NCBI GenBank assembly: GCA_039819165.1
Contig: JBCBSM010000001.1
Coordinates: 1,612,001 to 1,676,000 of the forward strand
Reading direction: 5' to 3'
From: Planctomycetota bacterium
Lineage (GTDB): Bacteria > Planctomycetota > Phycisphaerae > Phycisphaerales > UBA1924
DNA: 64,000 nt
The notes beneath the pieces are model-generated. The model was not told where the DNA came from, did not search any database, and saw nothing but the letters and a program-made list of their open reading frames with translations. Both the position numbers and the translations under genes were made by a program. Of this stretch, positions 2,095 through 25,380 are shown one piece after another. Every line of letters begins with the position of its first letter. The first letter of the stretch is position 1.

Positions 2095-3204
2095 ATGCAG
2101 ATGACTCGCACCATTGCCATGTCCGCCGCCGCCGTCGCCATCGTTGCCGGCGCCGCGCAGGCCCAGATCACCAGCACGTCCATGGGCACCGATGCCCCGC
2201 CGTCGTCGATCTTCGACTACGACCTGTCGACCGCGTTCGAGTTCCGCGCCTCGGGCACCGAGGTGACGTCGGCCAACGTCGGCGGCTTTCGCAGCGTCGA
2301 CTTCTCGCGGCCCATGACGCTGCACCGCATCGGCGACGGCTGGGCGACCTGGAGCCACGGCTACACCGGCCCGGTGTATTCCAGCCAGGGCGCCAACTCG
2401 GTCCGCCTGTCGTTCGACAGCCGCGAGGTCGGCGCCTTCATCCTGTACGTCGAGCCCAACTCGTTCGGCACGTTCGCCTTCGAGATCGAGGGCGTGGACG
2501 CCGCGGGCCATTCGATCACCTACAACCGCCAGATCGAGGGCTTCGAGGGCGCCCAGGGCTTCGGCTTCGCGGTGCCCCCCGGCCAGTTCATCCGCTCGGT
2601 GCGGGTGGTCAACAGCGACGGCAACGCCGGCGGCTTCGCGGTGGGCGAGTTCTCGTCGGCCGCCGACGCGACGAGCTGCCTGCCCTGGCGGGGCTTCGGC
2701 TTCGGCGGCGTGGGCGACACCATCAGCGAGCGAATCGTCGTGGGCACGCAGTGCGGCCTGCTGAAGGTGACCGATGCCTTCCTGTCGGGCGACCGCTTCC
2801 GCGTCCGCGTCCGCCGCGGCTTCGCCACGGTCGCGACCTTCGACACGAGCGTGCCCACGGAGGGTGACTCGATCGGCGACGACTACGACGGCGCGTACGC
2901 CAGCCGCCGCTTCTCGAGCGGCAGCGTCGAGCTGGACCCCGGCGCGTACACCGTGCAGATCACCGTGCTCGACTCGCCCTTCGGCGCGGGCGGCGCGGCG
3001 CTCAAGCTCGATCCGCGGCCGTGCCCCTACGGCGCATGCCGGGCCGACTTCGACGGCGATGGCGCCCTGACCATCTTCGACTTCCTGGCCTTCCAGAACG
3101 CCTTCGACTCCGGCGACTACTGCGCTGACTTCGACCGCGACACCGAGTTCACGCTCTTCGACTTCCTGGCGTTCCAGAACGAGTTCACGGTGGGCTGCCC
3201 GTAG
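2095..3204 (+). CDS. secreted protein with C-terminal dockerin-like repeats
   Basis: A 369-residue exported protein of unknown function. It opens with a signal peptide (basic MTR, then an Ala/Val-rich core ending AGAAQAQ). The middle looks all-beta and is not assigned to a family. The C-terminus carries two dockerin-like Ca-binding repeats, each an acidic DFDGDG or DFDRD loop followed by LFDFLAFQN or IFDFLAFQN, ending in GCP. This tail style is frequent in Phycisphaerales exported proteins and recurs at 7544-8302. The start is ATG 2095 with GGGAG at 2079-2083; GTG 2092 and ATG 2101 are also possible and would leave the signal peptide intact. A strong hairpin follows at 3282. Confidence 0.75.
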   Translation: MQMTRTIAMSAAAVAIVAGAAQAQITSTSMGTDAPPSSIFDYDLSTAFEFRASGTEVTSANVGGFRSVDFSRPMTLHRIGDGWATWSHGYTGPVYSSQGANSVRLSFDSREVGAFILYVEPNSFGTFAFEIEGVDAAGHSITYNRQIEGFEGAQGFGFAVPPGQFIRSVRVVNSDGNAGGFAVGEFSSAADATSCLPWRGFGFGGVGDTISERIVVGTQCGLLKVTDAFLSGDRFRVRVRRGFATVATFDTSVPTEGDSIGDDYDGAYASRRFSSGSVELDPGAYTVQITVLDSPFGAGGAALKLDPRPCPYGACRADFDGDGALTIFDFLAFQNAFDSGDYCADFDRDTEFTLFDFLAFQNEFTVGCP

Positions 3205-6953: not shown

Positions 6954-7547
6954 ATGGGACGTGGCCGCCCCCGCAGCTTCGACGAGGATCAGGTGCTCGA
7001 TGCCGCCCTGGAGATGTTCGTGGCCAACGGCTACGACGGCGTCTGCGTGGCGGCCATCTGCGACCGCACGGGCGTCGCGCCGCAGAGCCTGTACAACGCC
7101 TTCGGCGACAAGGCCGCCCTCTACCAGCGGGTGCTCGAGCGGTACGGCGGGCTGACGCACGCCCCGGCCGTCGAGGCGCTGCTGGCCGAGCCCGACCCGC
7201 TTGTGGCGCTGCGGCGCTTCGCCTCGGGCTTCGCGAGGCACGCGAGCACCTGCGACGGCTGCCTGTTCGCCCGCGTGATGGCCGAGGCCGAGCCCGACCG
7301 CGAGGACGCCAAGCTGGCGCAGGCGTCGACGGCGCGCCTCCGCAAGGCCTTGCGCGCGCGGGCCCGGGAGGCCGCCGACGCCGGGCGATTGCCCGATGGT
7401 GCCGACCCGGGCGCCGTGGCCGACACGCTGCTCGCCCTGGCGGTCGGGGTGGCGGTGGTCTCTCGGGGCGGCATGCCGGCCGCGGTCGTCAAGGGCTGCG
7501 TTCGCGAGGGGCTCCGGCTGCTCGGTGATCTCGGTGGATCGGGCTAG
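6954..7547 (+). CDS. TetR/AcrR family transcriptional regulator
   Basis: A 197-residue repressor. The N-terminal helix-turn-helix is clear: RSFDEDQVLDAALEMF, then GVCVAAICDRTGVAPQSLYNAFGDKAALY (about 8-57). The C-terminal domain is ligand-binding, with a CDGCLFARVMAE segment typical of the TetR group often found next to SDR genes. It starts at ATG 6954, directly at the predicted transcription start. Its stop shares CTAG with the stop of the convergent gene at 7544. The likely targets are itself and the divergent SDR. Confidence 0.85.
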   Translation: MGRGRPRSFDEDQVLDAALEMFVANGYDGVCVAAICDRTGVAPQSLYNAFGDKAALYQRVLERYGGLTHAPAVEALLAEPDPLVALRRFASGFARHASTCDGCLFARVMAEAEPDREDAKLAQASTARLRKALRARAREAADAGRLPDGADPGAVADTLLALAVGVAVVSRGGMPAAVVKGCVREGLRLLGDLGGSG

Positions 7548-8302
7548 GCGCAGCCCGCGTCGAAGGCATTCTGGAACGCGAGGAAATCGAAGAGGGTGAG
7601 GCTGCCGTCGCCGTCGAAGTCGGCGGCCGGATCGCCGGCGTCGAAGAGGTTCTGGAACGCCAAGAAGTCGAACAGCGTCAGCTCGCCGTCACCGTCGATG
7701 TCCGCCGGGCAGGCGAAATCGTCGAACATCGCGACGTTATCGAACACCGCGAGGATGCCGTCGAGCTCGCCGGCAACGGTGCCGCCACGGCAGATGAAGC
7801 GCATCTCCGTGAAGGTGCGGCCGGCGATCTCGAGGCGCGCGTGCGCGAAGGGCGCCCCCGAGCCGGGATGGATGAACGTGTCGCTCACGACGACCTCGCC
7901 ATCCAGGATGCCCTCGAGCGAGACCTCGGTGCCCGCCCAGCTCGTGCCGGCGTTGTACCACACGTCGACGCGGGCGGCATTCACGGGCTCGCCGGTGGTC
8001 GCGATCCACTGATGGGTGCGCGTGAAGCCCAGCACGCTGCCGGTCGACCAGCCGCCCGTCGTCATGACGTTGGGGGCCGAGAAGAACGGATCGCCGCCGA
8101 GCGTGCCGCCGCCGGCCGTCGCGGCGAACCGCACCATGCCGCCGCCGGGGAACCAGAGGTTCTCCGAGAAGGTGATGCCGCCATCGGTAAACTCACGTCC
8201 GAGAAAGCCGGCGTCGAAGCCATCGAACGTGGCTTCCTGGGCGACGACGGCGGGCGCGAATGCCAGGACCACCGGCAGCAAGAAGAGGCACTTGGACGAC
8301 AT
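7544..8302 (-). CDS. secreted protein with C-terminal dockerin-like repeats
   Basis: A 252-residue exported protein. The signal peptide is MSSKCLFLLPVVLAFAPAVVAQ. A beta-rich domain of about 170 residues follows, resembling lectin-like or carbohydrate-binding sandwich domains, but I cannot assign a family. The C-terminus has two tandem dockerin-like repeats (ADIDGDGELTLFDFLAFQN and ADFDGDGSLTLFDFLAFQN), ending GCA. The tail is nearly the same as in the protein at 2095-3204 although the bodies differ, so the tail acts as a shared module. ATG 8302 is preceded by GGAGG. Confidence 0.75.
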   Translation of the reverse strand: MSSKCLFLLPVVLAFAPAVVAQEATFDGFDAGFLGREFTDGGITFSENLWFPGGGMVRFAATAGGGTLGGDPFFSAPNVMTTGGWSTGSVLGFTRTHQWIATTGEPVNAARVDVWYNAGTSWAGTEVSLEGILDGEVVVSDTFIHPGSGAPFAHARLEIAGRTFTEMRFICRGGTVAGELDGILAVFDNVAMFDDFACPADIDGDGELTLFDFLAFQNLFDAGDPAADFDGDGSLTLFDFLAFQNAFDAGCA

Positions 8303-11929: not shown

Positions 11930-12097
11930 TTCGCGTCTCCGGTCCGTGGATGAGATTGGAGCGCAGGCGACGTCCATGCCGCCGGCGTCATCGCCCGCAT
12001 CGTCCACTCAGCAAGCCCACTCCAAGGAATCTCGGCTTGCCGAGCCCCACGCGAGGCATCCTCATTGACGCAATAGAGCGCCCCGGGGACAAGCCCG

Positions 12098-14749
12098 CTA
12101 CGGCGCCGGCGGGGTGCGGTTGGTTGCCGGTGGGTTGGTCGGGTGGATCAGCGACTCGAAGTCGGTGTAGAGGAACGCGTGGTGGGTCGATCTCGGACCT
12201 GCGTCGTCGACCAAGTCCTGAGCGACTAGGCCTCGGTGGCCCGAGCCGGTGCCCGGCACCGCCAGGTGCTGGTTGTAGATGTAGCGCGTCGGCATCGCGA
12301 ACTCATCGAACTTGAGATGAGGCCAGTCCGGCCGGAGGAAGCCGTTGCCGCAGTCGCTATCCCTGCAGAACTGGATCTCGTGGGCCGCACAGGGGCTGCC
12401 ATCTTCTCCATCATTCGAGCACTCTGGCTGCGACGCTTCACTGAAGTCGCACTTCCTGCACTTGATTCCGGGCGTCACCTGCTCCGTGTAGTTGCCGTCC
12501 CAGTCGTTGAACTCCGGACAGGTGTACGAGGTGTTCATGGCGAACGGCGTGTGGTATCCCCACAGGAGATTGTCTGCGATCTGCCAACCCGTGAACGTTG
12601 GTATGTAGGTCTGGTCTGCAAACTGCGACTTGCCGTCCGTGTAGATGCCTCGCTTCCCGTCGACGGACACTGCCGGATCCTGGAAGACGACGTTCGCCCC
12701 AACTCGCGATAGATCGCCATCCCGCATGAGCACGATCCCGGCCATATCGTCCAGTAAGAGCGTGGCGTTCCGCACGATGTTGTGATTGATGCGGATGCCG
12801 CGAGATTGCGGGCGGTTCAGTGCCGGGTTGTCACCGGGCGTGAAACCGGAGCTGATCGCCTCCGCGGGCGTCTCGTTGAAGTAGTTGTAGTGGATGTACG
12901 AGCAGTCGTCCGGGCACGCGAACGTGGGCGGGTCGGTCTCGGCCGCCGTCCATCCGCTGAACACCGCCGGACTCGACAGGAAGGTCTGCCCGACGTGGTA
13001 GACGAAGTTGTCCGCGATGTCGAACCTCCTGGGCACCTCGGCGAGCGACTGTGACACAAGATGGCAGTTGTTCGATTGAAGATTGAGGCGGCACGCCACG
13101 ATTGCGCTGGCACCCACGTCGAACATCTCGTTCTGCCGCACCTGGTGATCCGCGCCGTTCTCCATCACGACGGCGCTCCCCCCGGTGTGCGCGACGCGGC
13201 AGCGCCGGATCTCGATGTTGCTGCCATTAACGATCCGGATGGCGCCGTCGAGTCGGTATCGCAGGTCCGGGTCGGCGAGGGTCTGGTCCGCGCACGCCGC
13301 GGCGGGGGGTTTCGTTCGATAGAACTCGAAGCTCCGCATGCGCTCGAACCAGCCCAGGAGCGGGTAGTCGACCTTTGCCAGATCGACCTGGCTGCGATTG
13401 ACCAGAGAGAAGTCGCAGCCGCTCATGCCGCCGCAGTCTACCTCCACTACCTTCTGGCCGCCGAGCAAATCGCTGAACGGCTGTGGCCTCGGCAACTCCT
13501 GGTGGGTATGAGCGAAATTGAGCTGGACAAACTGCACGTGGGATGCGCCGTCTAGCACGAACAACTGCGGAGCATACGGGATGACGATCGTCGTGTTGGC
13601 GACTTCCGAGTGCGGGCCGGGCGGTACCTGGGCACCGGGGAGAATCACCCAGAGTCGATCGTCGGGGTATCCGGGAGCCGCGGGGTCACCGCTCTGCTGC
13701 GGGTTGAACCACCATTCGTAGGGCTCGTCCATGAACTCCTTGGCATTCTCAAGGTAGATCTCGGTCGCGTACCGGCACACGCTGGTGTCGTCCTCGTACA
13801 CGAATACGCCAATCTGCTCGGGCACGCCGAGCATGTCATGCAAGCGGATGTAGGTCGTCCCGGATGCCGGGTCCGGGTCAATCTCGCGGACGTACTGACG
13901 GTGCGATATCCACGACCCTGCGTTGCGCATAACGCATTCGGTGCCTCGGTATGGCGTGTATGCCCGTGGGCCGGAGTCTGGCTCGGGGAACAGGTGCGCC
14001 GCCGAAAGGGCATATTCGTTCATGGCCTTGTCGGCCTCGGTCACGGTGTCGCCCAGCTCGGGTAGATCGTAGATGGGACCATCGATGCGCGCGAAGCCGG
14101 ACGTGAGCGGAAGGTCGCCCTCGTCCGGTTCGCGCGCACGGGTCGCGCGTGCATTGTCGATGTACAGGTCGCGCGGCATGAGCGGGTCCTTGAAGTCCGT
14201 CGTCGCCCATCCGGACGGCAGCGTCTGGGTCCACCACCGGTCACCGCCGGCGGGGGACTGCGTCGTCCAGTCCGTGAGTTCGATGCCGCCCGAGATCAAC
14301 ACACTCTCGTAGTTGCCCGCACTCGGGCTGTACGCCCGGTAGATCACCGGATAGTCCTCGGCCCCCGAGTCCATTGCCGTAAATTCGAGTGGTTCCGGCA
14401 GCGGATTGGTGGAGTTTGTCGTGGCCGGCGGGTATGTGCCTGCTCGGATGTCGACGCGGATGTGGTACTCCAGCGGGGAGCACGTGGCCTTTATGTTGCG
14501 GACGAGATTCCGGGCGTCTGCGATCGTCTCCACCGGACGATCAATGCGATTCATGTGGTACATCCAGGGCACGGGAATGGAGCCCTGGGCCGGCTGCGCT
14601 GCGGCATCGACATAGAAAACGACGGTATCGTCCTTTGCCGGACACTGGAGGCACTCCGACTCGGTTGCCAGCGTGTTCCCGGCAGCAATGCACATCGTGC
14701 ACCATGCGAACGCACACTTGTTTCGTCTCGACGGTTTTCTACGCATCAT
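12098..14749 (-). CDS. large secreted right-handed beta-helix protein
   Basis: An 883-residue protein with a weak, Cys-containing signal-like N-terminus (MMRRKPSRRNKCAFAWCTM). The region YHIRVDIRAGTYPP, a long middle with repeated short N/D-rich turns (GSNIEIRRCRVAHTGGSAVV, ADHQVRQNEMFDVGASAI) and RINHNIVRNATLL match the parallel beta-helix/pectate-lyase-like fold, often a polysaccharide-acting or adhesive surface protein. No catalytic triad can be named. ATG 14749 has AGGAG 8 bases upstream. The bases are visibly less GC-biased than in flanking genes, suggesting acquisition. Confidence 0.7.
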   Translation of the reverse strand: MMRRKPSRRNKCAFAWCTMCIAAGNTLATESECLQCPAKDDTVVFYVDAAAQPAQGSIPVPWMYHMNRIDRPVETIADARNLVRNIKATCSPLEYHIRVDIRAGTYPPATTNSTNPLPEPLEFTAMDSGAEDYPVIYRAYSPSAGNYESVLISGGIELTDWTTQSPAGGDRWWTQTLPSGWATTDFKDPLMPRDLYIDNARATRAREPDEGDLPLTSGFARIDGPIYDLPELGDTVTEADKAMNEYALSAAHLFPEPDSGPRAYTPYRGTECVMRNAGSWISHRQYVREIDPDPASGTTYIRLHDMLGVPEQIGVFVYEDDTSVCRYATEIYLENAKEFMDEPYEWWFNPQQSGDPAAPGYPDDRLWVILPGAQVPPGPHSEVANTTIVIPYAPQLFVLDGASHVQFVQLNFAHTHQELPRPQPFSDLLGGQKVVEVDCGGMSGCDFSLVNRSQVDLAKVDYPLLGWFERMRSFEFYRTKPPAAACADQTLADPDLRYRLDGAIRIVNGSNIEIRRCRVAHTGGSAVVMENGADHQVRQNEMFDVGASAIVACRLNLQSNNCHLVSQSLAEVPRRFDIADNFVYHVGQTFLSSPAVFSGWTAAETDPPTFACPDDCSYIHYNYFNETPAEAISSGFTPGDNPALNRPQSRGIRINHNIVRNATLLLDDMAGIVLMRDGDLSRVGANVVFQDPAVSVDGKRGIYTDGKSQFADQTYIPTFTGWQIADNLLWGYHTPFAMNTSYTCPEFNDWDGNYTEQVTPGIKCRKCDFSEASQPECSNDGEDGSPCAAHEIQFCRDSDCGNGFLRPDWPHLKFDEFAMPTRYIYNQHLAVPGTGSGHRGLVAQDLVDDAGPRSTHHAFLYTDFESLIHPTNPPATNRTPPAP

Positions 14750-15396
14750 GTTGCTCTCCTATTGACCAGAGTCGATGCGAACTGATTTAAACAAACCGTG
14801 CTACGCATTCCCTCTAAAATACCTAGACTGCCGGCAAGATGCAAGACGAAATGCACCAGTTCAAGTCCGCCGATCGCACCCCGCCCGGCCGTCGCTCGTA
14901 ACTCCGCAATCTCCAAACATGCTGGTCTGGCGACCGGCGCATTCGGCAAACAGTTCTGATACGCCGGCGGCAGTAGGATGAAGCGATCAGGGATGGGCTT
15001 GGATCGTCAGCCGAGTCCAAGCGGCCGCCAGCAAGGGACTTGCAGCTGCCAGACAGGCAGTATTGGCCAACAGCCGACGCCTAGCGGCCGCAACAACAGT
15101 GCCCGCGGCCCGTCGCTCGGCAGCAACACCAGACCGGGCTTCGAATCGGCGTGTATGCCGAGCAGCACCAGCGGCTCTGGCCAGGGCGCCGAGCCGCAAT
15201 GCAATCCACCTCCGGCGTTCAGCTAGGCGTGAACAGACCCGGAGGCAGCATTTGTTGCGCGTGGTCCGAGAATGCGATGAACGAGGATACCACCACACTC
15301 CCGTTGACCTGCACAGACATCTGAACCCTAACAAACAACTCGCAGCAGTGTTCCGAAGGAACCTGGCATGCAGCTTCACAGCGATCACGTCCGCCG
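14750..15396. other. gap of about 650 bases without a recognisable gene
   Basis: No open frame here has a ribosome site or a recognisable family. The stretch lies between the divergent beta-helix gene and a sulfotransferase lacking its N-terminus. It may contain eroded sequence from that gene's 5' part, but in the three plus frames I do not find the expected P-loop motif (PKSGT or PRSGT). Confidence 0.5.
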
Positions 15397-16176
15397 ATGA
15401 TGGCTGGGCGGCTAGCGATACAGGACGAGGACTGCAACTGGGTCAAGGGGGTAAGCGGCGTGGTCGCCGAGCTGTACCACTACACCGACAAGGTGAAATC
15501 GGGAGAACTGACCGACGCCGAGGCACTCGCGTTGCTGCGTAGCCGGCGGGCGAGCAGGGAGGCCGCGGACCGGCCCAGCCCGCCGCTGGTCGTCAAGACG
15601 CACGAGCCGTGGAGCGTCGGGCACCCGTTCGCCGGCGAATCGTCGAACGCGGTGCTGCTCGTGCGCAATCCTCGCGACATGCTCATCAGCGCCATCAACT
15701 ACCGGCGGTTGCAGGGCGATGCCGAGCTCGACGCCGAGGCGTTCGCCCGCGAGTTCATCGAGCACGGCACGTCCAAGAAGTGGATCCGACGGGGCTACGG
15801 CCCCTGGTTCGAGCACTACCGCTCGTGGACCGAGCAGCGGGACGTTCCCGTCCACGTCGTCCGCTACGAGACGCTGAAGACCGAGCCGGTCGAGGCGCTG
15901 ATGGAGCTGGGCGGCTTCCTCGGGCTTGCCATAGGCGAAGAGGCGGCGGCGCGGGCCGTAGAACGCAGTTCGATGGAGAACCTCCGCAAGCGAGAGGTCG
16001 AGGCCCGGGGCCAGGGCGAGCTGAGCCAATACAAGGAAGGCTACTTCTTCATCAACCAGGGGCGATCCGCGCAATCGCTCGATGACATCGCCCCCGGACT
16101 GGATGCGGCCTTCGACGCCCGGTACGAGCGCGAACTCGCCGAGATGGGCTACGGCCGCCAGCCCGCCCGCAGCTAG
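15397..16176 (+). CDS. sulfotransferase domain, N-terminally truncated
   Basis: A 259-residue frame with the second half of a PAPS-dependent sulfotransferase: VVKTHEPWS, then LLVRNPRDMLISAINYR (3'-phosphate site), HYRSWTEQRDVPVHVVRYETLKTEP and RKREVEARGQGELS. The 5'-phosphosulfate-binding P-loop (PKSGTTW type), normally within the first 20 residues, is absent and no in-frame codons upstream supply it (stop at 15322). There is no ribosome site at 15397. It is therefore probably a decayed gene or one with a misplaced start, and unlikely to be active. Confidence 0.6.
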   Translation: MMAGRLAIQDEDCNWVKGVSGVVAELYHYTDKVKSGELTDAEALALLRSRRASREAADRPSPPLVVKTHEPWSVGHPFAGESSNAVLLVRNPRDMLISAINYRRLQGDAELDAEAFAREFIEHGTSKKWIRRGYGPWFEHYRSWTEQRDVPVHVVRYETLKTEPVEALMELGGFLGLAIGEEAAARAVERSSMENLRKREVEARGQGELSQYKEGYFFINQGRSAQSLDDIAPGLDAAFDARYERELAEMGYGRQPARS

Positions 16177-16923
16177 CTAGACGGCCGCCGGCTGCATCCC
16201 CTCGGCGACGAGGTCGGCGGCCAGGCGGGCCCGCGCCGCCTCCCACAGAGCGAGATCGTGCTGATTGTGCCGCAGGATGAGGTCGATCGTCTCGGCATCT
16301 TGGTCGTCCGCCCGTGGCCGCTCGGGTGTCCGGTTTTTCTCGGGAATAGCCGACAGCGACCAGCCCTCGGCCTCCCGAAGCAGCCGCTCGAAATCGGCCA
16401 TCTGCTCGACGATGCCCACGCGGTCGACCCTGGCAAGGTTCGCGAGCGCTGCACGCCCCATGGCATCGTCGATCCCGCCGAACGGCGGGTGGTGCTCCCG
16501 TGGCTGTTCGTTGAACAGCCGCGTCTGCATGTTGTCGAGCTCGATGTTGCGGCCCTGGCGGATGAAGTCGGCCAGCGACATGTCCGCGTGGAAGCCCGTG
16601 CGGTGGACGTAGTGCTCCGGCTTGCGAAGCACGTAATAGAAAAAAGAGAGCACCCTATCGACCGGATGCCGCAGCACGGACATGTACGTCGCGGGGGTCG
16701 ATAGATAGGCGTGGTTGCCGAAGAACTGGTGGCCCAGCAGCACGTCGGCTTGATCTCGCTCGTCCTGCGGCAGCGCCTGCCACGCGCGCAGCTCGTCGAG
16801 CCCGCCCTCGAACCGCTGGATGGTGGCGCCGGCGTACTGATCGCGCACCACGGCCCGGATCGACGTGCCGCCGGCCTTGAAGACGTGCAGGAAGATGAGC
16901 GGCTTCTTGAGGCGAGCTGGCAT
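16177..16923 (-). CDS. sulfotransferase family 2 protein
   Basis: A 248-residue enzyme of the heparan-sulfate-sulfotransferase-like group (Sulfotransfer_2). The PAPS loop is FLHVFKAGGTSIRAVVRDQY at residues 11-30, the 3'-phosphate site is VLRHPVDRVLSFFYYVLR, and GRNIELDNMQTRLF lies between. It presumably transfers sulfate to a glycan hydroxyl. ATG 16923 has AGGAG 6 bases upstream. It lies 8 bases after a paralogous gene (16932-17741) on the same strand, so they form an operon. Stops of this gene and the truncated sulfotransferase abut. Confidence 0.85.
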   Translation of the reverse strand: MPARLKKPLIFLHVFKAGGTSIRAVVRDQYAGATIQRFEGGLDELRAWQALPQDERDQADVLLGHQFFGNHAYLSTPATYMSVLRHPVDRVLSFFYYVLRKPEHYVHRTGFHADMSLADFIRQGRNIELDNMQTRLFNEQPREHHPPFGGIDDAMGRAALANLARVDRVGIVEQMADFERLLREAEGWSLSAIPEKNRTPERPRADDQDAETIDLILRHNQHDLALWEAARARLAADLVAEGMQPAAV

Positions 16924-16931
16924 CTGTGCTC

Positions 16932-17741
16932 CTAGCGATTGGCCGTTGCAAAGATCCGGGGTCCCAGCGGATTCTCGAGCCGCTGCTCGAACAGGCGGAT
17001 CGCATCCCCATACAACGCGAGATCCAGCTCGTTCTGGCGTTCGATGGCCCGCCGCGTCTCGCCGTCGAGGTCGTCCGCGGCCGGGCGACCGGGCGCCACC
17101 CGCGCCGAGGTGTAGGAGCCCACCCACCACCCGTACCGCCGCTCGACGAGGCCGGCGAACTCGTCGAACCGCTCGGTCAGCCCGACGGCATCGAACTGGT
17201 CCAGGTTGGCCCGAGCGCTGGCGAGCATCGCCTCGTCGACCTCGCCAAACCGCGGCCGGGCATCCGCATCGCGGTTGAGCGCCCGGACCTGGAAATTGTC
17301 GAGCTCGATGCACCCCCGTTGCTCCAGCAGCTCGCGGAGCGATACGTCGGCCGTGAACCCCGTCCGGTACAGATAGTGGTCCGGGGTGCGGAGCACGTGG
17401 TGGTAGAAGGACAGCACCCGATCGACGGGGTGCCGCAGCAGGGTCACGTAGGTCGCGGGCCGCGACAGCAGGTCGTGCAGACCGAAATTGATGTGGCCGC
17501 GCAGGTAGTCGTATGAGTCTCGCTCCGCCTGCGGCCGCTCGGCGAACTCCGCGACATCCTTCAAGCCTCGCTTGAATCCGTGCGTCACTTCGAGCGTGTA
17601 GTTCTTGTTGAGGATCCGCCCAAGAGTGGTTCCGGCCGTCTTCTGGATGTGGTGGAGGATCACCGGGCGAGGCCAGCGGGACGGATCCGCCGTGATATGC
17701 CGGACGTGGGTGCCCTGTCGCATGGATCCGGTGGTGCTCAC
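16932..17741 (-). CDS. sulfotransferase family 2 protein, paralogue
   Basis: A 269-residue paralogue of the next gene. The PAPS loop is LHHIQKTAGTTLGRILNK (about 29-46), the 3'-phosphate site TLLRHPVDRVLSFYHHVLR, and GCIELDNFQVRALN lies further on. Both genes share R.GFH/TADVSL and the FxxxERRYG-like tail. ATG 17741 is 27 bases from the GTG of the divergent glycosyltransferase, leaving almost no room for separate promoters. Together with the glycosyltransferase and ABC ATPase across the divergence, it points to sulfated glycan synthesis. Confidence 0.85.
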   Translation of the reverse strand: MSTTGSMRQGTHVRHITADPSRWPRPVILHHIQKTAGTTLGRILNKNYTLEVTHGFKRGLKDVAEFAERPQAERDSYDYLRGHINFGLHDLLSRPATYVTLLRHPVDRVLSFYHHVLRTPDHYLYRTGFTADVSLRELLEQRGCIELDNFQVRALNRDADARPRFGEVDEAMLASARANLDQFDAVGLTERFDEFAGLVERRYGWWVGSYTSARVAPGRPAADDLDGETRRAIERQNELDLALYGDAIRLFEQRLENPLGPRIFATANR

Positions 17742-17768
17742 GCGGCGCTCCGATTGCTATATTGACCG

Positions 17769-19667
17769 GTGCTCCTGATCTCCCGCGAGTACCCCCCCTT
17801 CGTCGGCGGGGGCATCGGCACCTACACCGTCCGCATGGCGCGGACGCTCGCGGCCGCCGGGCGTGCCGCGACCGTGGTCACGGTAGGCCACGATGCCGAG
17901 CCGACCCGCGAGCACGCCGGCGGCATCGCCGTGGTGCGGCTGCCGTTCATCGCCCTGGGTAACGCCGGCGGCGGGTCCAAGCTGGAGGGGTCCGAACTGG
18001 AGGGGGCCGAGCCGGACTGGTCCGCGCCGCATCCGGCCATCCGGACGCCGGCCACCCTGGCGGCCTTCTGGGCCTTCCACCGCGAGAGCGTGTTCGCCAT
18101 GCAGATCCGCGAGCACCTGCCCGCGCTGCTGGACGAGTTCGAGCCGGAGGCCATCGAGGCCCCCGACACCGGGGCGGCGCTGTGGTTCATCCTCAACGAC
18201 CGGCGGCTGGGCCGCGGGCCGCTGGCCGAGCGTGGCGTCGACGGCCCGCCGGTGATCGTCCACCTGCACAGCCCGACGGCGTGGATCGAGGAACTCCAGG
18301 GTGGCCCGCAGCCGGGGCGGGCCGCGGCCGAATTGCGATCGATGGAGCGGGACGTGCTCCGCTGGGCCGACGGCGTCGCGAGCCCGTCGCGGATGCTCGC
18401 CGAATGGACGGCCGCGTGGGAGCCGGCGGTCGAAGGCCGGGTGTGCGTGACGCCGTACCCGCTCGGGCGGCCCGTCGACGCCGAAGCACCGCGGGCCAGC
18501 GGCGACGCGGCGTTGTTCGTGGGCCGGATGGAGCGGCGCAAGGGCTTCGGCACGCTCACCGAGGCGATCGCGATGCTCCGATCCGCCGACCGCTCGTGCC
18601 CGGTCGTCCGCGTCGCCGGCCGGGATACCGAGGACTGGGTCACCGGCGGCCCATTCGGCAACAAGGTGCTTGCGCGGCTTGGGCTCGGGGGCGACGCGAT
18701 CGAGTTGCTGGGAGAGCTTGAGTCTGCTGCGCTGGCTGCCGAGAGGACTCGGTGCCCGATCGCGCTGGTACCCAGCCCGAACGACAACTTCCCCAACACC
18801 TGCATGGAAGCCATGGCGGCGGGCCAGATCGTCGTTGCGGCCAATGCGGGCGGCATGGCCGAGATGATCGAGGACGGCACCAGCGGCGTGCTGTTCGCAC
18901 CGGGCGATGCCGCGAGCCTGGCCGACGCGATCGAGCGTGCGGCCACCATGGCCGCGGGGCAGCGCGACGCGATGGCCGCCGCCGCCCGTCATCGCATCGC
19001 GACGCTGTGCGAGGACGCCCGCGTGCTCGCCCGCCGCACCGAGCACGCCGCCGGGTGCCGGCCGCGCTTGCCGACGCCCGCCCCGGACCGCAACGTAGCG
19101 ATCATCAACGCCAGCAGGGCGAGCGAGCCGCAGCACGAGCAACTGCGGGCGGCCCTCCGAGCGAACGCCGGCGTCGACGCCGTCATCCCTTGGACCTCGA
19201 GGACCAACGCGGACGGCGAGGCCGTGGAGGCCTGCTCGACGCCCGCCGCCGACCGCGCCGAGCTGCTCCCCGCCCACGCGGGCCCCATCGCCACGACGCT
19301 CGCCCTCGCCGAGCGGCTGCCCGGGGCGGCACGAGTCGACGCGGGCTGGATCGCCGCCGACTCGACCGCCGCGCTGCGGTGGCTGCTCGATCAGGGTGCG
19401 CGGGTCGCGGTGCTGCCCGAGGTTGTCGTCGGTTCGGCGGGCGATGCGGACGACCGGCCGGGCGTACCCGTCGTGCAGCGGCTGGGCGAGCTGGAGGGCC
19501 TGGCCAACGCCCGCTGGCACGAGATCGACGCGGTGCGCCGCCGGGCCGACGCGCTGGCCGCCGACCTCGAGCGCACGCGGCGCGAGCTGGCCGAGATCCG
19601 GTCGAGCCGGGCGTACGGCCTCGCGCGGCGGCTGAGCGCGCTCCGCCGCCGGCTGCTGGGCGGCTAG
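17769..19667 (+). CDS. glycosyltransferase family 4, extended C-terminus
   Basis: A 632-residue glycosyltransferase. The N-terminus SREYPPFVGGGIGTYTVRMARTL is the GT4 acceptor-side motif. The donor domain has ALFVGRMERRKGFGTLTEAI, then P.NDNFPNTCMEAMAAGQIVVAANAGGMAEMI and DGTSGVLFAPGD, which contains the E-x7-E-type nucleotide-sugar site. After about residue 420 follow 210 residues of a second domain with an unassigned Rossmann-like pattern, ending in a coiled coil (RRRADALAADLERTRRELAEI). GTG 17769 is the only start before the motif. Upstream regulatory space is shared with the divergent sulfotransferase. Confidence 0.8.
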   Translation: MLLISREYPPFVGGGIGTYTVRMARTLAAAGRAATVVTVGHDAEPTREHAGGIAVVRLPFIALGNAGGGSKLEGSELEGAEPDWSAPHPAIRTPATLAAFWAFHRESVFAMQIREHLPALLDEFEPEAIEAPDTGAALWFILNDRRLGRGPLAERGVDGPPVIVHLHSPTAWIEELQGGPQPGRAAAELRSMERDVLRWADGVASPSRMLAEWTAAWEPAVEGRVCVTPYPLGRPVDAEAPRASGDAALFVGRMERRKGFGTLTEAIAMLRSADRSCPVVRVAGRDTEDWVTGGPFGNKVLARLGLGGDAIELLGELESAALAAERTRCPIALVPSPNDNFPNTCMEAMAAGQIVVAANAGGMAEMIEDGTSGVLFAPGDAASLADAIERAATMAAGQRDAMAAAARHRIATLCEDARVLARRTEHAAGCRPRLPTPAPDRNVAIINASRASEPQHEQLRAALRANAGVDAVIPWTSRTNADGEAVEACSTPAADRAELLPAHAGPIATTLALAERLPGAARVDAGWIAADSTAALRWLLDQGARVAVLPEVVVGSAGDADDRPGVPVVQRLGELEGLANARWHEIDAVRRRADALAADLERTRRELAEIRSSRAYGLARRLSALRRRLLGG

Positions 19668-19734
19668 GCCCCCGCGGGTGCTCGCTCTACGATCGGCCGT
19701 GGATGCCGCACACAACGAGCACACGACCGACGCA

Positions 19735-21123
19735 ATGCCCGAGCAGTTCGACGCGGGCGGCTGCATCGTCGAGTGCCGGGGCATCAGCAAGCGGTTCAAG
19801 ATGTACCGCAACCCGTGGCACCGCGCGGCCGAGTGGGCCACCTTGAATCGAGCGAGCCTGCATCGCGACTTCTGGGCCGTGCGGGACGTGTCCTTCGAGC
19901 TGCAGCGCGGCGAGTGCCTGGGCATCGTCGGCCGCAACGGCTCGGGCAAGAGCACGCTGCTCAAGCTGGTCACCGGCGTCAGCGTGGCGACCGAGGGCCA
20001 CGCCGAGATCCACGGCCGGGTGCTGAGCCTCATCGAGCTGGGCGCGGGCCTCAACAAGGAGCTCACGGGCCGGCAGAACGTGTTCAACATGGCCCGGCTG
20101 CTGAACTTCCCGCCAGGATTCGCAAAGGATCGCATCGACGCCATCGAGGCCTTCGCCGAGATCGGCGACTTCTTCGATCGGCCGACCAAGACCTACAGCT
20201 CGGGCATGACGGTGCGGCTGACCTTCAGCATCTTCCAGTCCTTCGAGCCCGAGGTGCTCGTGGTCGACGAGGCCCTCAGCGTGGGCGACGTGTTCTTCGT
20301 GCAGAAGTGCAGCCGTCGGATCCAGGAGATGCTCGACGCCGGCACGACGATGCTCTTCGTCAGCCACAGCCCGGGCGCGGTGACCAACCTGTGCAGCCGG
20401 GCCATCCTGCTCGAGCGGGGCCGCGTGACCTTCGACGGCGAGCCCGAGGACACCATCGCCCGCTATCACGACAGCCTGCGGCGGGGCGACCAGCCGGCCA
20501 AGCCAGCCGCGCCGACCCGAGCCGCCGCAGCTCGACAGGACGCGTCGAATCCGCCGGCCGAGACCGACCACGCCGCCGCGACGCGCGAACACTCGGTGCT
20601 CCACGGCACGCAGCACCGGCGGCACGGCGAGGGCGGCATCCGCATCGAGGCCTGCCGCCTGACCAACGCCGACGACCAGGACCGTACCGTCTTTGGCGTG
20701 GGCGACACGCTCCGGCTGCGGATGCTGCTGCGAGCGGATCGCGCCGTCCCCGCCCCGCGGGCCGGCCTGCGCATCTTCGATCGCTACGGCGTGCAGGTCT
20801 TCGGGCAGGGCACCATGCAGCAAGGCACCGACGTGCCACCCCTGGAGGCCGGCGACGAGCTGCTGCTGACCTTCGACCTCACGCTCGACGTCTCGCCGGG
20901 CGACTACACGCTGGGCGTATCCACCAGCGAGCCCAGCGGCGACGGCGATCCGCAGGGCGCGATCTTCCACGACCACATCAACGGGCTGGGGCCGATCCGC
21001 GTCAAGCACCCGCCGATGACGCCGTTGCCCTTCCTCGGGCTCGCGCGGCTGCCGATGTCGGTCTCGTGCGAACGCCTGCACGCAAACCCGGGCGTCGCCT
21101 CGCACGCCGGGGCGTCCGCGTGA
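19735..21123 (+). CDS. polysaccharide ABC exporter ATP-binding protein (Wzt-like) with C-terminal carbohydrate-binding domain
   Basis: A 462-residue Wzt/TagH-type ATPase energising export of a finished glycan. Walker A is GRNGSGKST (67-75), the signature is the Wzt-typical YSSGM near 155, and Walker B is VLVVDEAL near 175. After about residue 290 a beta-sandwich domain begins (RIEACRLTNADDQDRTVFGVGD, GDYTLGVSTSEP), as in Wzt proteins that bind their own glycan. No permease (Wzm) is present in the visible neighbourhood. ATG 19735 is used; GTG 19678 and 19699 are alternatives. The stop overlaps the following sulfotransferase as GTGA. Confidence 0.85.
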   Translation: MPEQFDAGGCIVECRGISKRFKMYRNPWHRAAEWATLNRASLHRDFWAVRDVSFELQRGECLGIVGRNGSGKSTLLKLVTGVSVATEGHAEIHGRVLSLIELGAGLNKELTGRQNVFNMARLLNFPPGFAKDRIDAIEAFAEIGDFFDRPTKTYSSGMTVRLTFSIFQSFEPEVLVVDEALSVGDVFFVQKCSRRIQEMLDAGTTMLFVSHSPGAVTNLCSRAILLERGRVTFDGEPEDTIARYHDSLRRGDQPAKPAAPTRAAAARQDASNPPAETDHAAATREHSVLHGTQHRRHGEGGIRIEACRLTNADDQDRTVFGVGDTLRLRMLLRADRAVPAPRAGLRIFDRYGVQVFGQGTMQQGTDVPPLEAGDELLLTFDLTLDVSPGDYTLGVSTSEPSGDGDPQGAIFHDHINGLGPIRVKHPPMTPLPFLGLARLPMSVSCERLHANPGVASHAGASA

Positions 21124-21962
21124 GCCAGCCCGGCGAACCCGGCCGCATCGCCTTCCTCACCGGCTGCGGTCGCTCGGGCACGACCATCCTCGGCCGGCTG
21201 ATCAACGCGGCGCCGAGCGTGCGGTACCTCAACGATCAATTCGACCTGTGGATCGGCCCCTTCCCGCGATGCGATGCGTGGGGCCTGCATCCCGATGCAA
21301 GAGAGTCCGGCCCGATCGAGCTCACCGAAGCCGACGCCGATCCGGCGGGCATCGACGCATTCTGGCGGGGCATCGAGGCCGAGCGGGGCAATGCACCCCT
21401 CGTCCTCGAGAAGGTTGCGCTCAACAACTTCCGGCTGCGCTTCCTGCGGGCGATAGCGCCCGACGCCCGCATCGTCAGCATCGTGCGGCACGGCGTGGAG
21501 GTGGCACGCTCCATCGGCCGCCGCATCGAATGCGGGCAGTGGTACGGCGACGGCGACCGCAAGTGGCACGCGCTGCAGGACCTCGCGAGGGCGCGCGGGC
21601 TCGGCGACCTGCTGCCGCACTGCGCAACGCCGACGGAGCGGGGCCTGCTCGAGTGGCGGCTGAGCGTGGAGGTCGCGGCCGAGCACCTCGCCGCGATTGG
21701 CAATGATCGCGTGCTGCGGGTGCACTACGAGGACCTGCTCGCCGACCCGGACGCAACAATGGCGGCCATCGCCGGCCACCTGGGCATCCCGTCCGACGCG
21801 GAGCACATGCAGCGGAAGGCCCGCGAACTGCTGGGTCGGCAGAATCCGTCGCACGCCGAGCTGCATCCGCCCCGCGAGGCCGAACGCATCGCGGGTGGGG
21901 CGCTGCGCGCCCTCGGCTACGAGCTGGAGGCGCCCGATTGCGGGGCTATGCTCGCCCCGTGA
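21120..21962 (+). CDS. sulfotransferase
   Basis: A 280-residue enzyme. The PAPS loop is GCGRSGTTILGRLINAAP (about 15-32) and the 3'-phosphate site IVRHGVEVARSIGRRI. An internal LEKVALNNFRLRFL and RVLRVHYEDLLADPD are typical of the Sulfotransfer_3 group. It starts with GTG overlapping the wzt stop and ends overlapping the next gene's GTG, so it is translationally linked to both and probably modifies the exported glycan. Confidence 0.85.
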   Translation: MSQPGEPGRIAFLTGCGRSGTTILGRLINAAPSVRYLNDQFDLWIGPFPRCDAWGLHPDARESGPIELTEADADPAGIDAFWRGIEAERGNAPLVLEKVALNNFRLRFLRAIAPDARIVSIVRHGVEVARSIGRRIECGQWYGDGDRKWHALQDLARARGLGDLLPHCATPTERGLLEWRLSVEVAAEHLAAIGNDRVLRVHYEDLLADPDATMAAIAGHLGIPSDAEHMQRKARELLGRQNPSHAELHPPREAERIAGGALRALGYELEAPDCGAMLAP

Positions 21963-23818
21963 GCGACCGGCCGATCCTGATCCTCGGCGTGCCCCGCTCG
22001 GGCACCACGCTGCTGCGGACGCTGCTCGACGCGCACCCGCGGATCGCCTGCGGCCCCGAGACGCCGTGGCTCGCCGAGCACCAGAGGGCGAGCGTGCTCG
22101 GGCTCGTGCGCTTCATGCGGGACGACGAGACGGGCTACTGCCGCTCCTACGGGCAGGATCCGTCCGTGGTGCTCGCCGCGGCGCGCGGCTTCGTGCACGA
22201 AGTGATGGCGGCCTACGCGAAGTCGCGCGGCAAGCGGCGCTGGGCCGAGAAGACCCCCAACAACCTGCTGCACCTCGACGAATTGGCCGGCCTGCTGCCC
22301 GAGGCGCAGTACGTGTGGATCACGCGCGCGCCGCTGGACGTGGCACACTCGACGACGAGCGTCCCCGAGCATCGCAAGCGGGTCGGCTCGATCTACAACG
22401 AGAAGCTCCGGCTGGACCGGCGTGTCGTCACGACGTCGACCCCGCTGGCGGCGATGCTGCGGTGGGCGAGCTGGAACCGCCGCATCGAGCGCTTCCTGGA
22501 AGGCCGCGAGCACCACACGATGACCTACGAGCGTCTGGTGCAGGACCCCGCCGGCGAGCTGCGCCGCCTGTGCGCGCACCTGGGCGAGGACTTCGACGAC
22601 GCCACGCTCCGCTACGAGCCGGGCCGCCACGACCTGCCAAGCTGGGAATGGGGCAGCGCCGACGTGGCCGAGCACGCCTCGATCAGCACCAGCCGCATCG
22701 GCGTGGGCTGGCGGGAGCTCTCATCCGAGCTGCGGAGCGGGCTCGCGCCCATCGCCGCGTTGTGGTCGCCCGATGACGTGCCCGCGCCCGCCGAGGTTGC
22801 GCCGCACGAGCCGACCTGTCCACGAACCGCTCGGTCCATCGGCACCCAGCTGCGCACGCTCGCGAACGGCCTCGGCATGGATGCGCTCGATGACGACGAC
22901 GAGGCCCTAGGCATGCAGCTCCTCGACGCGGCTCGACGGCGAGGCGGTAACGCTCCGGCCGCCGCAGCACTCGCACTCCGCTATGCGGGCGTGCCCGTCC
23001 GGTGCGACGGTCCCTGCTTGGGCCCCGCGCTCGAGAGGCTCGATCTCATCGAGCCCGACAACGACCGCGTGGCGGCGCACGCGAGCGCCGCCCCACCGGC
23101 TGCGCACGCCCGTCTTGCATCGCTCGACGAGTTGCGGTCGGAGCCATTCGCGGGCTTCATGGCGGTGCTCAACGCCTTCGCCGCCGAGCACGGCCTCCGC
23201 GAATTCACGACGTGGTCGAAGATCTGGGAGTACCCATGGTTGTGGTGGAACGCCGTTCGGCCGCTGCCGCTCGCGGGGCTCCGCGTCGTCGACCTGGGCA
23301 GCGAACTGAGCCCCATGCCCTGGTGGCTGGCATGCCGGGGCGCTCGGGTCACGATGATCGAGACCACTCGCGGCATCGAGCCCAGGTGGACCAAGCTCCG
23401 GGACGCGCTGCGGGTGCCCATCGACTGGCACTTCACCGACGACGAGCGCATCCCGATCGGTGACGGCGAGGCCGACCTCGTCACGAGCCTGAGCGTCATC
23501 GAGCACCAGCCCGACAAGAAGGCGGCGCTCGACGAGGCGGCCCGCGTGCTACGCCCCGGCGGCGTGCTCGCGCTGTCCTTCGACATCTGCGAGCCCGACA
23601 TGGACATGGCCTTCCCCGAGTGGAACGGCCGTGCGCTCACGATGGCCCAGTTCGAGCGGGACATCTGGCGGCACCCGGCGTTCTCGCCCGGCTGCGACAT
23701 CGCCTGGAATACCGGCGACATCCCGGCCTACTTCGAGTGGCACAAGACCACCGCCGAGCACCACACGTACGTCACGGGCGCAGCGGTCCTGCGGCGATGC
23801 GAACATCCGACCGGCTAG
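21959..23818 (+). CDS. sulfotransferase-methyltransferase fusion
   Basis: A 619-residue two-enzyme protein. Residues 1-280 are a Sulfotransfer_3-type domain: ILGVPRSGTTLLRTLLDAHP (about 7-26), WAEKTPNNLLHLDEL, ITRAPLDVAHSTTS and MTYERLVQDPAGELRRL. Residues about 300-615 form a class I SAM methyltransferase: LRVVDLGSELSPMPWWLA (motif I), DDERIPIGDGEADLVTSLSVIEHQ (post-I) and LDEAARVLRPGGVLALSFDI (motif III). The Gly-rich loop is DLGSELSP rather than DxGxGxG. GTG 21959 overlaps the previous stop. The fusion suggests sulfation and O-methylation of one glycan unit. Confidence 0.8.
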   Translation: MSDRPILILGVPRSGTTLLRTLLDAHPRIACGPETPWLAEHQRASVLGLVRFMRDDETGYCRSYGQDPSVVLAAARGFVHEVMAAYAKSRGKRRWAEKTPNNLLHLDELAGLLPEAQYVWITRAPLDVAHSTTSVPEHRKRVGSIYNEKLRLDRRVVTTSTPLAAMLRWASWNRRIERFLEGREHHTMTYERLVQDPAGELRRLCAHLGEDFDDATLRYEPGRHDLPSWEWGSADVAEHASISTSRIGVGWRELSSELRSGLAPIAALWSPDDVPAPAEVAPHEPTCPRTARSIGTQLRTLANGLGMDALDDDDEALGMQLLDAARRRGGNAPAAAALALRYAGVPVRCDGPCLGPALERLDLIEPDNDRVAAHASAAPPAAHARLASLDELRSEPFAGFMAVLNAFAAEHGLREFTTWSKIWEYPWLWWNAVRPLPLAGLRVVDLGSELSPMPWWLACRGARVTMIETTRGIEPRWTKLRDALRVPIDWHFTDDERIPIGDGEADLVTSLSVIEHQPDKKAALDEAARVLRPGGVLALSFDICEPDMDMAFPEWNGRALTMAQFERDIWRHPAFSPGCDIAWNTGDIPAYFEWHKTTAEHHTYVTGAAVLRRCEHPTG

Positions 23819-25302
23819 TGAGGCTTGTGCCACAGGCCGCAGCACCAGCAGTGCTCGTCGGCCGCGGGCTGGACGCTCTCGACGGCCTCGAACGGCACCA
23901 GCGGGTGCCACGAGACGCCGCCGTAGCGGATGAACGCCAGCGGCTCGACGGGCAGCAGCCCCCGCACGTCGTTCCCCAAGAGTCCCGGGATCGCACCGAG
24001 CAGGGCCGCATCGTCGGCGTCGGTCGATCCCTCGAGCGATCGCACCCAGTCCATCGCGTCGGCATCGACGATCCAGTCGTGGTCCTGGCTGAGCTGCTGG
24101 TCGATGAGCGACGCAAGCCTGCCGCAGTAGCCCCGCAGCGTCGCACCGCACGGCGCAATCTCCGCCGACACGACCAGCACCCCGCCGGCACGCAGCGACG
24201 CCCAGGCCGCCGACGCGACGCCGGCGGGATCGTCGGAGCGATGCAGCGCGGCCCTCAGATGGATCAGGTCGTGCGGCCCGTCCCGGGACTCGGTGGTGCG
24301 CACGCCCGGCAGGACGGTCCCGGGAGGCACGCGCCAGCGGCGGCGAATCAGCCGGGGTGGCGACGGCAGCGATTGCAGCGCCGCACGGAGCGGCGCGTTG
24401 TGGAAGCCCGCGGACGCTTCGAGAGGGCGAGGCTCGGCGGCCGATGCCGGCTCGGTATCCGCCCAGAGCGATCGCAGCCGGCGGAGCACGGGCCCGCTGA
24501 GCGCGAGCTTGCGGCGCATGCCCTCGATCTCGCGCGCGGCTCGATCGCGCTCGGAGGCGCCCGTGATGTCATCCAGGAACGGCTCGCCGAACTCGATGAG
24601 CGACGCCACGATGCATCGGTTGTCGGCCGTCTTCTGCTCGTCGTGCGCGCGCATGCACGCCACGCGGTGCTCGATGGACTCGAACCGCGCGCCGGCGCGG
24701 AGCAGCGTCAACCACAGCTCGTGGTCCATCGTGAAATGGTTGGCGTCATTCAGCCCTCCCACCGCCCGGAAGCACGCGAGCCGGAAGAACGCCTCGGGCT
24801 GGACGATCAGCCGACCGTTGAACCAGCCGCTGCGCAGCCTCAGCAGGCCGGCGGCGTCGATCGGCTCGGGCGGCCTCGGTTCGAAGATCGTCTCGCCATC
24901 CCGAACGAATCGGCAGCGGCCCACGAGCACGTCGGGCGCGTCGGCGTCGCGGAGCCGGCCGAGCATGGGCGCGAGGGCGCCCTCCTCCAGCCAATCGTCG
25001 GCGTTGAGCCAGGTCGCGAACTCGCCGCGGGCGTGGTGCAGCAGGCCCGCGTTGATCGCCGCGCTCTGGCCGCCATCGGGCTCGCTCTGCCAATGCGCCA
25101 GGTGAGCCGCACGCTCGAGCAGGCCGACGGTGGCGTCCGTGCTGCCGCCATCCATGACGATGTGCTCGACCGAGCCGGGCTCGCCGAACTCGGCATCGAC
25201 CCGGGCGATCTCCCGGCGGACCGAGTCGAGGCACTCGCCGAGGTAGCGACCCTGGTTGAGCGACGGCGTCACGATGGACAGGAGCGGCGTTGCGGCGGGC
25301 AC
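23815..25302 (-). CDS. GT2 glycosyltransferase with methyltransferase-like C-terminal domain
   Basis: A 495-residue protein. Residues 1-230 form a family 2 glycosyltransferase: LSIVTPSLNQGRYLGECLDS, VMDGGSTD (50-56), NADDWL (100-105, the metal site) and DHELWLTLLRAGA. Residues about 320-480 contain a pattern of the second half of SAM methyltransferases: DLIHLRAALHRSDD then SLRAGGVLVVSAEI. The Gly-rich SAM-binding motif is not seen, so this half may be degenerate. It is convergent with the sulfotransferase-methyltransferase gene, sharing the stop bases CTAG. Confidence 0.75.
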   Translation of the reverse strand: MPAATPLLSIVTPSLNQGRYLGECLDSVRREIARVDAEFGEPGSVEHIVMDGGSTDATVGLLERAAHLAHWQSEPDGGQSAAINAGLLHHARGEFATWLNADDWLEEGALAPMLGRLRDADAPDVLVGRCRFVRDGETIFEPRPPEPIDAAGLLRLRSGWFNGRLIVQPEAFFRLACFRAVGGLNDANHFTMDHELWLTLLRAGARFESIEHRVACMRAHDEQKTADNRCIVASLIEFGEPFLDDITGASERDRAAREIEGMRRKLALSGPVLRRLRSLWADTEPASAAEPRPLEASAGFHNAPLRAALQSLPSPPRLIRRRWRVPPGTVLPGVRTTESRDGPHDLIHLRAALHRSDDPAGVASAAWASLRAGGVLVVSAEIAPCGATLRGYCGRLASLIDQQLSQDHDWIVDADAMDWVRSLEGSTDADDAALLGAIPGLLGNDVRGLLPVEPLAFIRYGGVSWHPLVPFEAVESVQPAADEHCWCCGLWHKPH

Positions 25303-25380
25303 GCCCGACGGTAGGTGCGGAATCGCCCTGCCCCGACGCCCCGCCGGGTTCCGGACCCACCGCTCCCGCTACGCTGCGCC

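Follow-up and report, generated by a model that had tools for sequence, protein, structure and literature searches.

The window analysed here, a 64,000-nt stretch of the planctomycete genome G000 (3,143,350 bases, 35 contigs), carries a dense group of sulfotransferase (ST) genes around a Wzt-type ATPase (Table 1). This locus is probably a module for the export of a sulfated glycan, based on an ATP-binding cassette (ABC) exporter of the type whose Wzt bears a carbohydrate-binding domain (CBD), with the gene of its permease Wzm displaced from the operon; more boldly, a fusion of a sulfotransferase and a methyltransferase (ST3b-MT) may mark the terminal sugar. The domains, their conservation, the separate permease with its kinship and the swapping of the domain that accompanies the methyltransferase (MT) were computed directly. 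An initial annotation of this DNA had already proposed a sulfated-glycan export module, and this core idea is sound and supported, in an interpretation that is partly supported as a whole: ST, glycosyltransferase (GT) and Wzt genes co-occur across genera, and ST-MT or related fusions adjoin Wzm or Wzt in other phyla. The most interesting part, the exchangeable enzyme accompanying Wzt, had gone unnoticed in it.

Domains were called by a Pfam scan, in which the family cut-off for Sulfotransfer_2 was 22 bits. The scan bore out the first annotation of a GT4 gene and a Wzt with a CBD accompanied, within 8.4 kb, by five ST domains. These are 5 of the 11 ST places above cut-off in G000, which fall into three Pfam families, and such a grouping was reached in 0 of 200,000 random placements under a uniform null that ignores operons. 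The two Sulfotransfer_2 paralogues (ST2a and ST2b, a tandem pair with 43% identity) and the two Sulfotransfer_3 enzymes were also as announced, except that the fusion of the second of the latter (ST3b) with a methyltransferase had been missed. The remaining copy, ST1, is indeed truncated but belongs to another family, Sulfotransfer_1. Wzt and ST3a overlap by 4 bases, as do ST3a and ST3b-MT, a pattern typical of translationally coupled genes; for Wzt, an alternative start at 19678 may apply.

Wzt combines the ABC ATPase with a C-terminal Wzt_C domain, the only Wzt_C match in G000, and a Wzm-type ABC-2 permease is encoded in the same genome, as expected of CBD-type Wzm-Wzt exporters. The adjacency of wzm and wzt, which is usual in such exporters without defining them, is absent here, and the earlier observation that no permease adjoins Wzt inside the window was correct. 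In both profile and structure searches, the best match of Wzt was the full-length Wzt of the Aquifex aeolicus O-antigen exporter, and the separate Wzm matched best the permease of that same solved transporter. Foldseek aligned both Wzt domains to the A. aeolicus transporter. The Wzt model, with 14 sequences behind it and 52 residues with a predicted local distance difference test (pLDDT) score <50, was superposed on A. aeolicus Wzt over residues 23-449 (Z 30.8, root-mean-square deviation (rmsd) 11.5, 362 aligned residues); the high rmsd of this model reads as a matter of domain arrangement.

Conservation was followed in a genus set composed of the window genome and G001-G006 (n = 7), searching the stretches around Wzt by tblastn at E 1e-4; the counts rest on tblastn because gene calling missed genes in some relatives. 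The comparison with related genomes that had been suggested initially revealed a conserved core, since GT4, Wzt and ST3b-MT occur together in 7/7 genomes. ST3a is present in five of the seven (not in G003 and G005), and neither ST2 nor GT2 was matched in the six other genus stretches. A polymer sulfated at several positions, as previously implied by the number of enzymes, is therefore a weakened proposal: ST1 lacks the loop that binds 3'-phosphoadenosine 5'-phosphosulfate (PAPS), ST2a and ST2b are not found in those six stretches, ST3a is not constant, and ST3b-MT is the only ST present in every member. In other genera of the family, the gene order is ST2, GT4, Wzt, ST3a, ST3b, Wzm in G034, and Wzt, ST3a, a sub-threshold sulfotransferase-like gene, ST3b-MT, Wzm in G026. 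In G067, the end of Wzt is overlapped by a 1,041-amino-acid (aa) frame that resembles ST3b distantly, and G139 shows a distant ST3b match at the corresponding place.

Concerning the permease, four places in G000 match ABC2_membrane. Three of them (L072, L074, L075) have an adjoining ABC ATPase gene, and these ATPases match that of Wzt. The fourth is the separate Wzm (256 aa), encoded at C1:1819518-1820288 (L073:11518-12288), about 186 kb from Wzt, with no ATPase match in the 20-kb stretch L073 around it. It is 52-54% identical to the Wzm proteins adjoining ST3b in G026 and G034, versus 25-31% for seven other Wzms of the family; among the presumed Wzms beside Wzt in other genera, those of L060 and L063 were Pfam-scanned and five more were compared by BLAST only. 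The initial annotation had advised a hunt for a Wzm-like permease, for which this is the candidate, and had supposed that Wzt may borrow one. Borrowing was rejected, given that the three other permeases have their own ATPases adjoining and, of the Wzms compared, the nearest kin of the ATPase-less one adjoin ST3b. The separate Wzm is thus probably the partner of Wzt, with which it would form the exporter complex, its gene having left the operon.

This separation is shared by the whole genus. Orthologues of the separate Wzm (59-66% identity) occur in G001-G006, all outside the 20-kb stretch around Wzt, on different contigs of draft genomes in G001, G002, G003, G005 and G006 and on the same contig, with 2.2 Mb between, in G004. 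One further genus (G098) is also split, so that wzm is apart from wzt in 7/7 genus genomes and in this one: its locus L204 reads ST2, GT4, Wzt, MT fusion, ST3a, and its Wzm lies on another contig. Three other genomes have full-length homologues of GT2 at the corresponding place. In two of these (G096, G128) Wzm adjoins GT2 in divergent orientation; in the third (G107), contig C202 carries Wzt-ST3a-ST3b-MT and ends inside the MT, and contig C82 carries an MT end, GT2 (-) and Wzm (+). Since GT2 in the window is convergent to ST3b-MT and a MoxR-like gene comes next, the GT2/MoxR junction is likely the former wzm site, judging by synteny. Near the separate wzm, a gene of 129 aa with no Pfam match (L073:11132-11521) is found in 7/7 genus genomes and overlaps wzm by 4 bases in G000.

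The trees built from 28 Wzm and 28 Wzt proteins are broadly congruent, although a number of their forks are unsettled and long branches lead to G137, uL139 and G009. The genus groups with G026 and G034 in the Wzm tree (support 90/85), and in the Wzt tree the genus, G026 and G034 group together with G096 and G128 (91/92). Among 120 family genomes, MT-fusion genes (E <1e-40) are present in 9, including that of G098, which is of the pyruvyl type; this Wzm (at least 41% identity) is present in 12, and both in 8. By genus, the co-occurrence of MT fusion and Wzm is 5/5 among 74 genera (Fisher p 1.3e-6), a value obtained with thresholds picked after the tables were seen and from genomes that are related and not independent.

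ST3b presents the features of a PAPS-dependent sulfotransferase, namely an N-terminal PAPS loop and a sulfotransferase fold. Its motif PRSGTT, which we take to be the PAPS loop, is invariant in 8/8 aligned rows. In the ST3b-MT model (9 sequences behind it, 42 residues with pLDDT <50), the closest folds are those of tyrosylprotein sulfotransferases for the ST and of RebM-like methyltransferases for the MT part. When named bacterial genomes were scanned with the ST3b-MT alignment, 31 loci were obtained, 27 of which have a Wzm or Wzt match (at least 60 bits) within 4 kb of the MT, the distance in L156 being measured from ST3b since no MT match was found there. The four others are L140 and the short contigs L148, L150 and L154 (3.0-5.2 kb). 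Seven loci (L130-L132, L135, L150, L152, L156) belong to genomes of the window's family; of the other 24, 21 have Wzm or Wzt.

The MT is the constant part of these proteins and its N-terminal partner changes. A sulfotransferase is the partner in L130-L132, L135, L150 and L152 and, outside the family, in L141 and L159, both Verrucomicrobiota and Pfam-scanned. PS_pyruv_trans takes this place in L136-L139 (Pfam-scanned) and L134 (by frame reading). A methyltransferase is itself the partner of the MT in L143 and L158 (Pfam-scanned) and in eight more loci by frame reading. By frame reading, no N-terminal partner is seen in L133, L146, L151, L154 and L160, and in L148 the partner region is cut by the contig end. 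Mapped on the MT tree, the partner label changes 7 times, compared with a mean of 17.5 after shuffling. The swap also occurs in the window's own family: G098 encodes a PS_pyruv_trans-MT fusion at the corresponding locus, between Wzt and ST3a, unlike ST3b-MT in the window, which stands after ST3a. With a limit of 60 bits, and within the stretches analysed, Wzt was not matched in eight loci of Verrucomicrobiota that encode Wzm and an MT-MT protein (L142-L145, L147, L149, L153, L157), which are possibly another separated exporter, nor in the CBD part of L138 or in L140, L148, L150 and L154. L147 has a Sulfotransfer_1-like gene between Wzm and the MT-MT protein; L140 has a 3,935-aa frame (L140:7391-19198) with the MT domain and GT2-like parts, and no Wzm or Wzt match in its stretch.

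An exporter-linked protein with one exchangeable group-transfer domain fits what would be expected of a capping enzyme. Tentatively, and with somewhat less than an even chance of being right, these proteins could form a modular capping-enzyme family in which a conserved MT, adjoining Wzm-Wzt exporters in several phyla, is joined to a swappable partner (ST, pyruvyl, MT or none) that switches the chemistry of the terminal tag between species, the tag of the window being sulfate plus O-methyl. On chemical grounds a sulfate ester is an unlikely methyl acceptor, and the methylated position would therefore be a hydroxyl or some other group. To our knowledge, such a tag would be the first sulfated export cap. 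No description of an ST-MT fusion adjoining Wzt was found in the literature searched, mostly at listing level; some of these caps may have been predicted by Mann et al. 2019 (Glycobiology), said to be a census of cap chemistries.

Four described systems come closest to the locus. The A. aeolicus Wzm-Wzt exporter (PDB 7k2t, 8dku; PMC9445017), whose CBD binds a methylated terminal sugar according to that source, has the same two-domain Wzt of ATPase and CBD and a permease that the separate Wzm matches best; it differs in that here an ST-MT fusion lies downstream of Wzt, the permease gene is elsewhere and a tryptophan of the CBD pocket is not conserved. For exporters of this type in Klebsiella and E. 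coli, a carbohydrate-binding module (CBM) is described as reading the cap, and uncapped chains are not exported (PMC11231755). Their WbdD-type terminators are likewise two-activity proteins with a methyltransferase adjoining a CBM-type exporter, but carry a kinase in place of the sulfotransferase; ST3b-MT, whose terminator role is putative, is not classed as WbdD-type because its model lacks a coiled-coil ruler. The O-antigen locus of Aeromonas salmonicida, as presented in PMC4483657, resembles the window in that inserted genes part wzm from wzt and a sulfotransferase-domain gene directly follows wzt, whereas its split is due to an insertion within one locus, not to a place elsewhere in the genome, and the part of the source consulted mentions no MT fusion. 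The sulfated capsule cluster of Cobetia marina (PMC11766843) also combines ST genes with an ABC exporter, and the sulfated structure of its product is reported there; however, its transporter is a KpsETMD group 3 capsule transporter and not a CBD-type Wzt.

In the mechanism that we propose, GT4 and GT2 would build a surface glycan on the cytoplasmic side, and sulfate from PAPS would be added by ST3b in every genus member seen, with ST3a and ST2 as additions. ST3b-MT would modify the terminal sugar with sulfate and an O-methyl group, and the CBD would read that end before export. The chain would then leave through the two-part Wzm-Wzt ABC-2 transporter, in which Wzt carries the CBD and Wzm, despite being encoded away from the operon, would still be the likely partner, and a final attachment of the glycan would follow.

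Several observations weigh against this mechanism, in addition to the late choice of thresholds and the relatedness of the genomes in the presence test. The pocket tryptophan of the A. aeolicus CBD is not kept in the profile alignment. As a possible sign of an anionic cap the pocket residues are ambiguous: read by eye, with residue numbers from PMC9445017, the tryptophan seems to be aligned with a histidine in the window's Wzt, but basic residues are also seen at that position beside MT-MT proteins. No helix longer than 22 residues, and hence no coiled-coil ruler, is present in the ST3b-MT model; a crude heptad score, itself not decisive, was lowest for ST3b-MT among eight proteins and highest for GT4 and GT2. 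By tblastn, GT4 was not found in the G026 stretch, nor the MT domain in G034. G014 has an ST-MT without this Wzm in an assembly of 460 contigs that is 88% complete, and in G096, G128, G067 and G139, which have this Wzm, the ST3b-MT alignment found nothing at E 1e-20. Moreover, the likeness of the ST3b fold to tyrosylprotein sulfotransferases makes a protein target possible.

Such a target is, even so, very unlikely. It would mean that the substrates of the ST3 enzymes are tyrosines in a secreted protein or peptide, with the glycan genes present only as neighbours; tyrosylprotein sulfotransferases are the best solved-structure matches of ST3b in sequence as well as in fold, but the constant association with GT4 and Wzt, and with Wzm in other genera and phyla, argues for a glycan, as does a match, although weak, to the Nod-factor sulfotransferase NoeE (60 bits, with a cut-off of 500). 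A different division of labour within the proposed mechanism is much more plausible and falls only a little short of an even chance: ST3b and ST3a would sulfate repeat units along the chain, and the CBD would read, for instance, an O-methyl group made by the MT, leaving sulfate as a decoration. The several STs per locus, the variable ST2 and ST3a content and the MT domains that adjoin Wzt without an ST in other phyla are consistent with it, but the exchange of ST, pyruvyl and MT domains in a protein adjacent to Wzm or Wzt suits a terminal tag better.

The identity of the exporter can also be questioned. Wzm and wzt are apart in all seven genus genomes, as would be the case if Wzt paired with another permease and the separate Wzm had another job; this is highly improbable, considering the ATPases adjoining the three remaining permeases, the broadly congruent trees and the co-occurrence. 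Equally improbable is that the window's STs serve the flippase-type polysaccharide locus linked to an exosortase at about 38-59 kb of the window, which starts about 13 kb away and has a flippase, an exosortase and a UDP-sugar dehydrogenase: in the six remaining genus stretches, Wzt is accompanied by ST3b-MT and none of the genes of that locus gave a match. A displaced Wzm that serves Wzt, with ST3b-MT acting on the terminal sugar, is thus preferred here.

With regard to sulfation elsewhere in G000, adenosine 5'-phosphosulfate (APS) kinase is present. Wzy_C (ligase or polymerase type) is matched at two places above cut-off and one below; the latter (C1:2292996-2294545, L077) lies about 0.6 kb from an ST match in a 733-aa frame, and this region is a possible second sulfated-glycan locus. 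The sole solved-structure match of ST2b at E <=0.01 is heparan sulfate 6-O-sulfotransferase 3 (E 4.3e-9). The full-length homologues of ST1 in L163, L164 and L166 start with the loop SYPRSGNTW or SYPKSGNTW, which is missing from ST1 and has no trace in 12000-16200 of the window. ST1 homologues are found in 3/6 other genus genomes (E 1e-15), and none in the genus stretches around Wzt by tblastn. Lacking the N-terminal PAPS loop, ST1 was rejected as a working enzyme and is probably, from its sequence, a dead remnant. Upstream of it, the gene of a large protein whose beta-helix match is weak and below threshold (12098-14749) adjoins a segment without a called gene (14750-15396) that ends at ST1, and the region from 12098 to 15396 is a possible recombination junction. 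The exosortase-linked locus (38130-59122) is a second glycan locus that encodes a pyruvyltransferase, an FrhB-like protein, a flippase (Polysacc_synt), the UDP-sugar dehydrogenase, a GT, the exosortase EpsH and an AAA/ParA-type protein that may be Wzc-like. Furthermore, two proteins (2119-3204 and 7544-8302) have a common C-terminal stretch around FQNxFxxGC, matched again in the relatives L054, L056 and L057, which could, at a guess, be a shared sorting tail.

Table 1. Genes and sites of the sulfotransferase locus, in window coordinates.
Feature	Position	Strand	Basis
ST1, truncated Sulfotransfer_1 (PF00685)	15397-16176	+	Pfam E 9.4e-22, profile matched from position 60 only
ST2a, Sulfotransfer_2 paralogue	16177-16923	-	Pfam E 4.9e-05, 24 bits
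ST2b, Sulfotransfer_2 paralogue	16932-17741	-	Pfam E 6.4e-08, 33.5 bits
GT4 glycosyltransferase, first gene of core operon	17769-19667	+	Pfam
Wzt, ATPase + C-terminal CBD	19699-21123	+	ABC_tran E 4.4e-18, Wzt_C E 2.5e-21
ST3a, Sulfotransfer_3	21120-21962	+	Pfam E 7.9e-23
ST3b-MT, Sulfotransfer_3 fused to C-terminal class I methyltransferase, candidate cap enzyme	21959-23818	+	Sulfotransfer_3 E 2.6e-33
GT2 glycosyltransferase	23815-25302	-	Pfam; near-full-length homologues divergent to Wzm in G096, G107, G128
Likely former wzm place, GT2/MoxR junction	25303-25380	.	Synteny with G096, G107, G128

If the proposed pairing is right, a Wzt with no permease gene beside it is not necessarily orphaned, since its partner may be encoded elsewhere in the genome and can be traced by comparing relatives. 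If the proposed mechanism is true, the "cap and check" logic of export would extend to sulfate, and the fusions with different partners would offer a natural domain-swap series for testing how a CBD reads its cap. The sulfated glycans of planctomycetes would also gain candidate genes for their biosynthesis and export.

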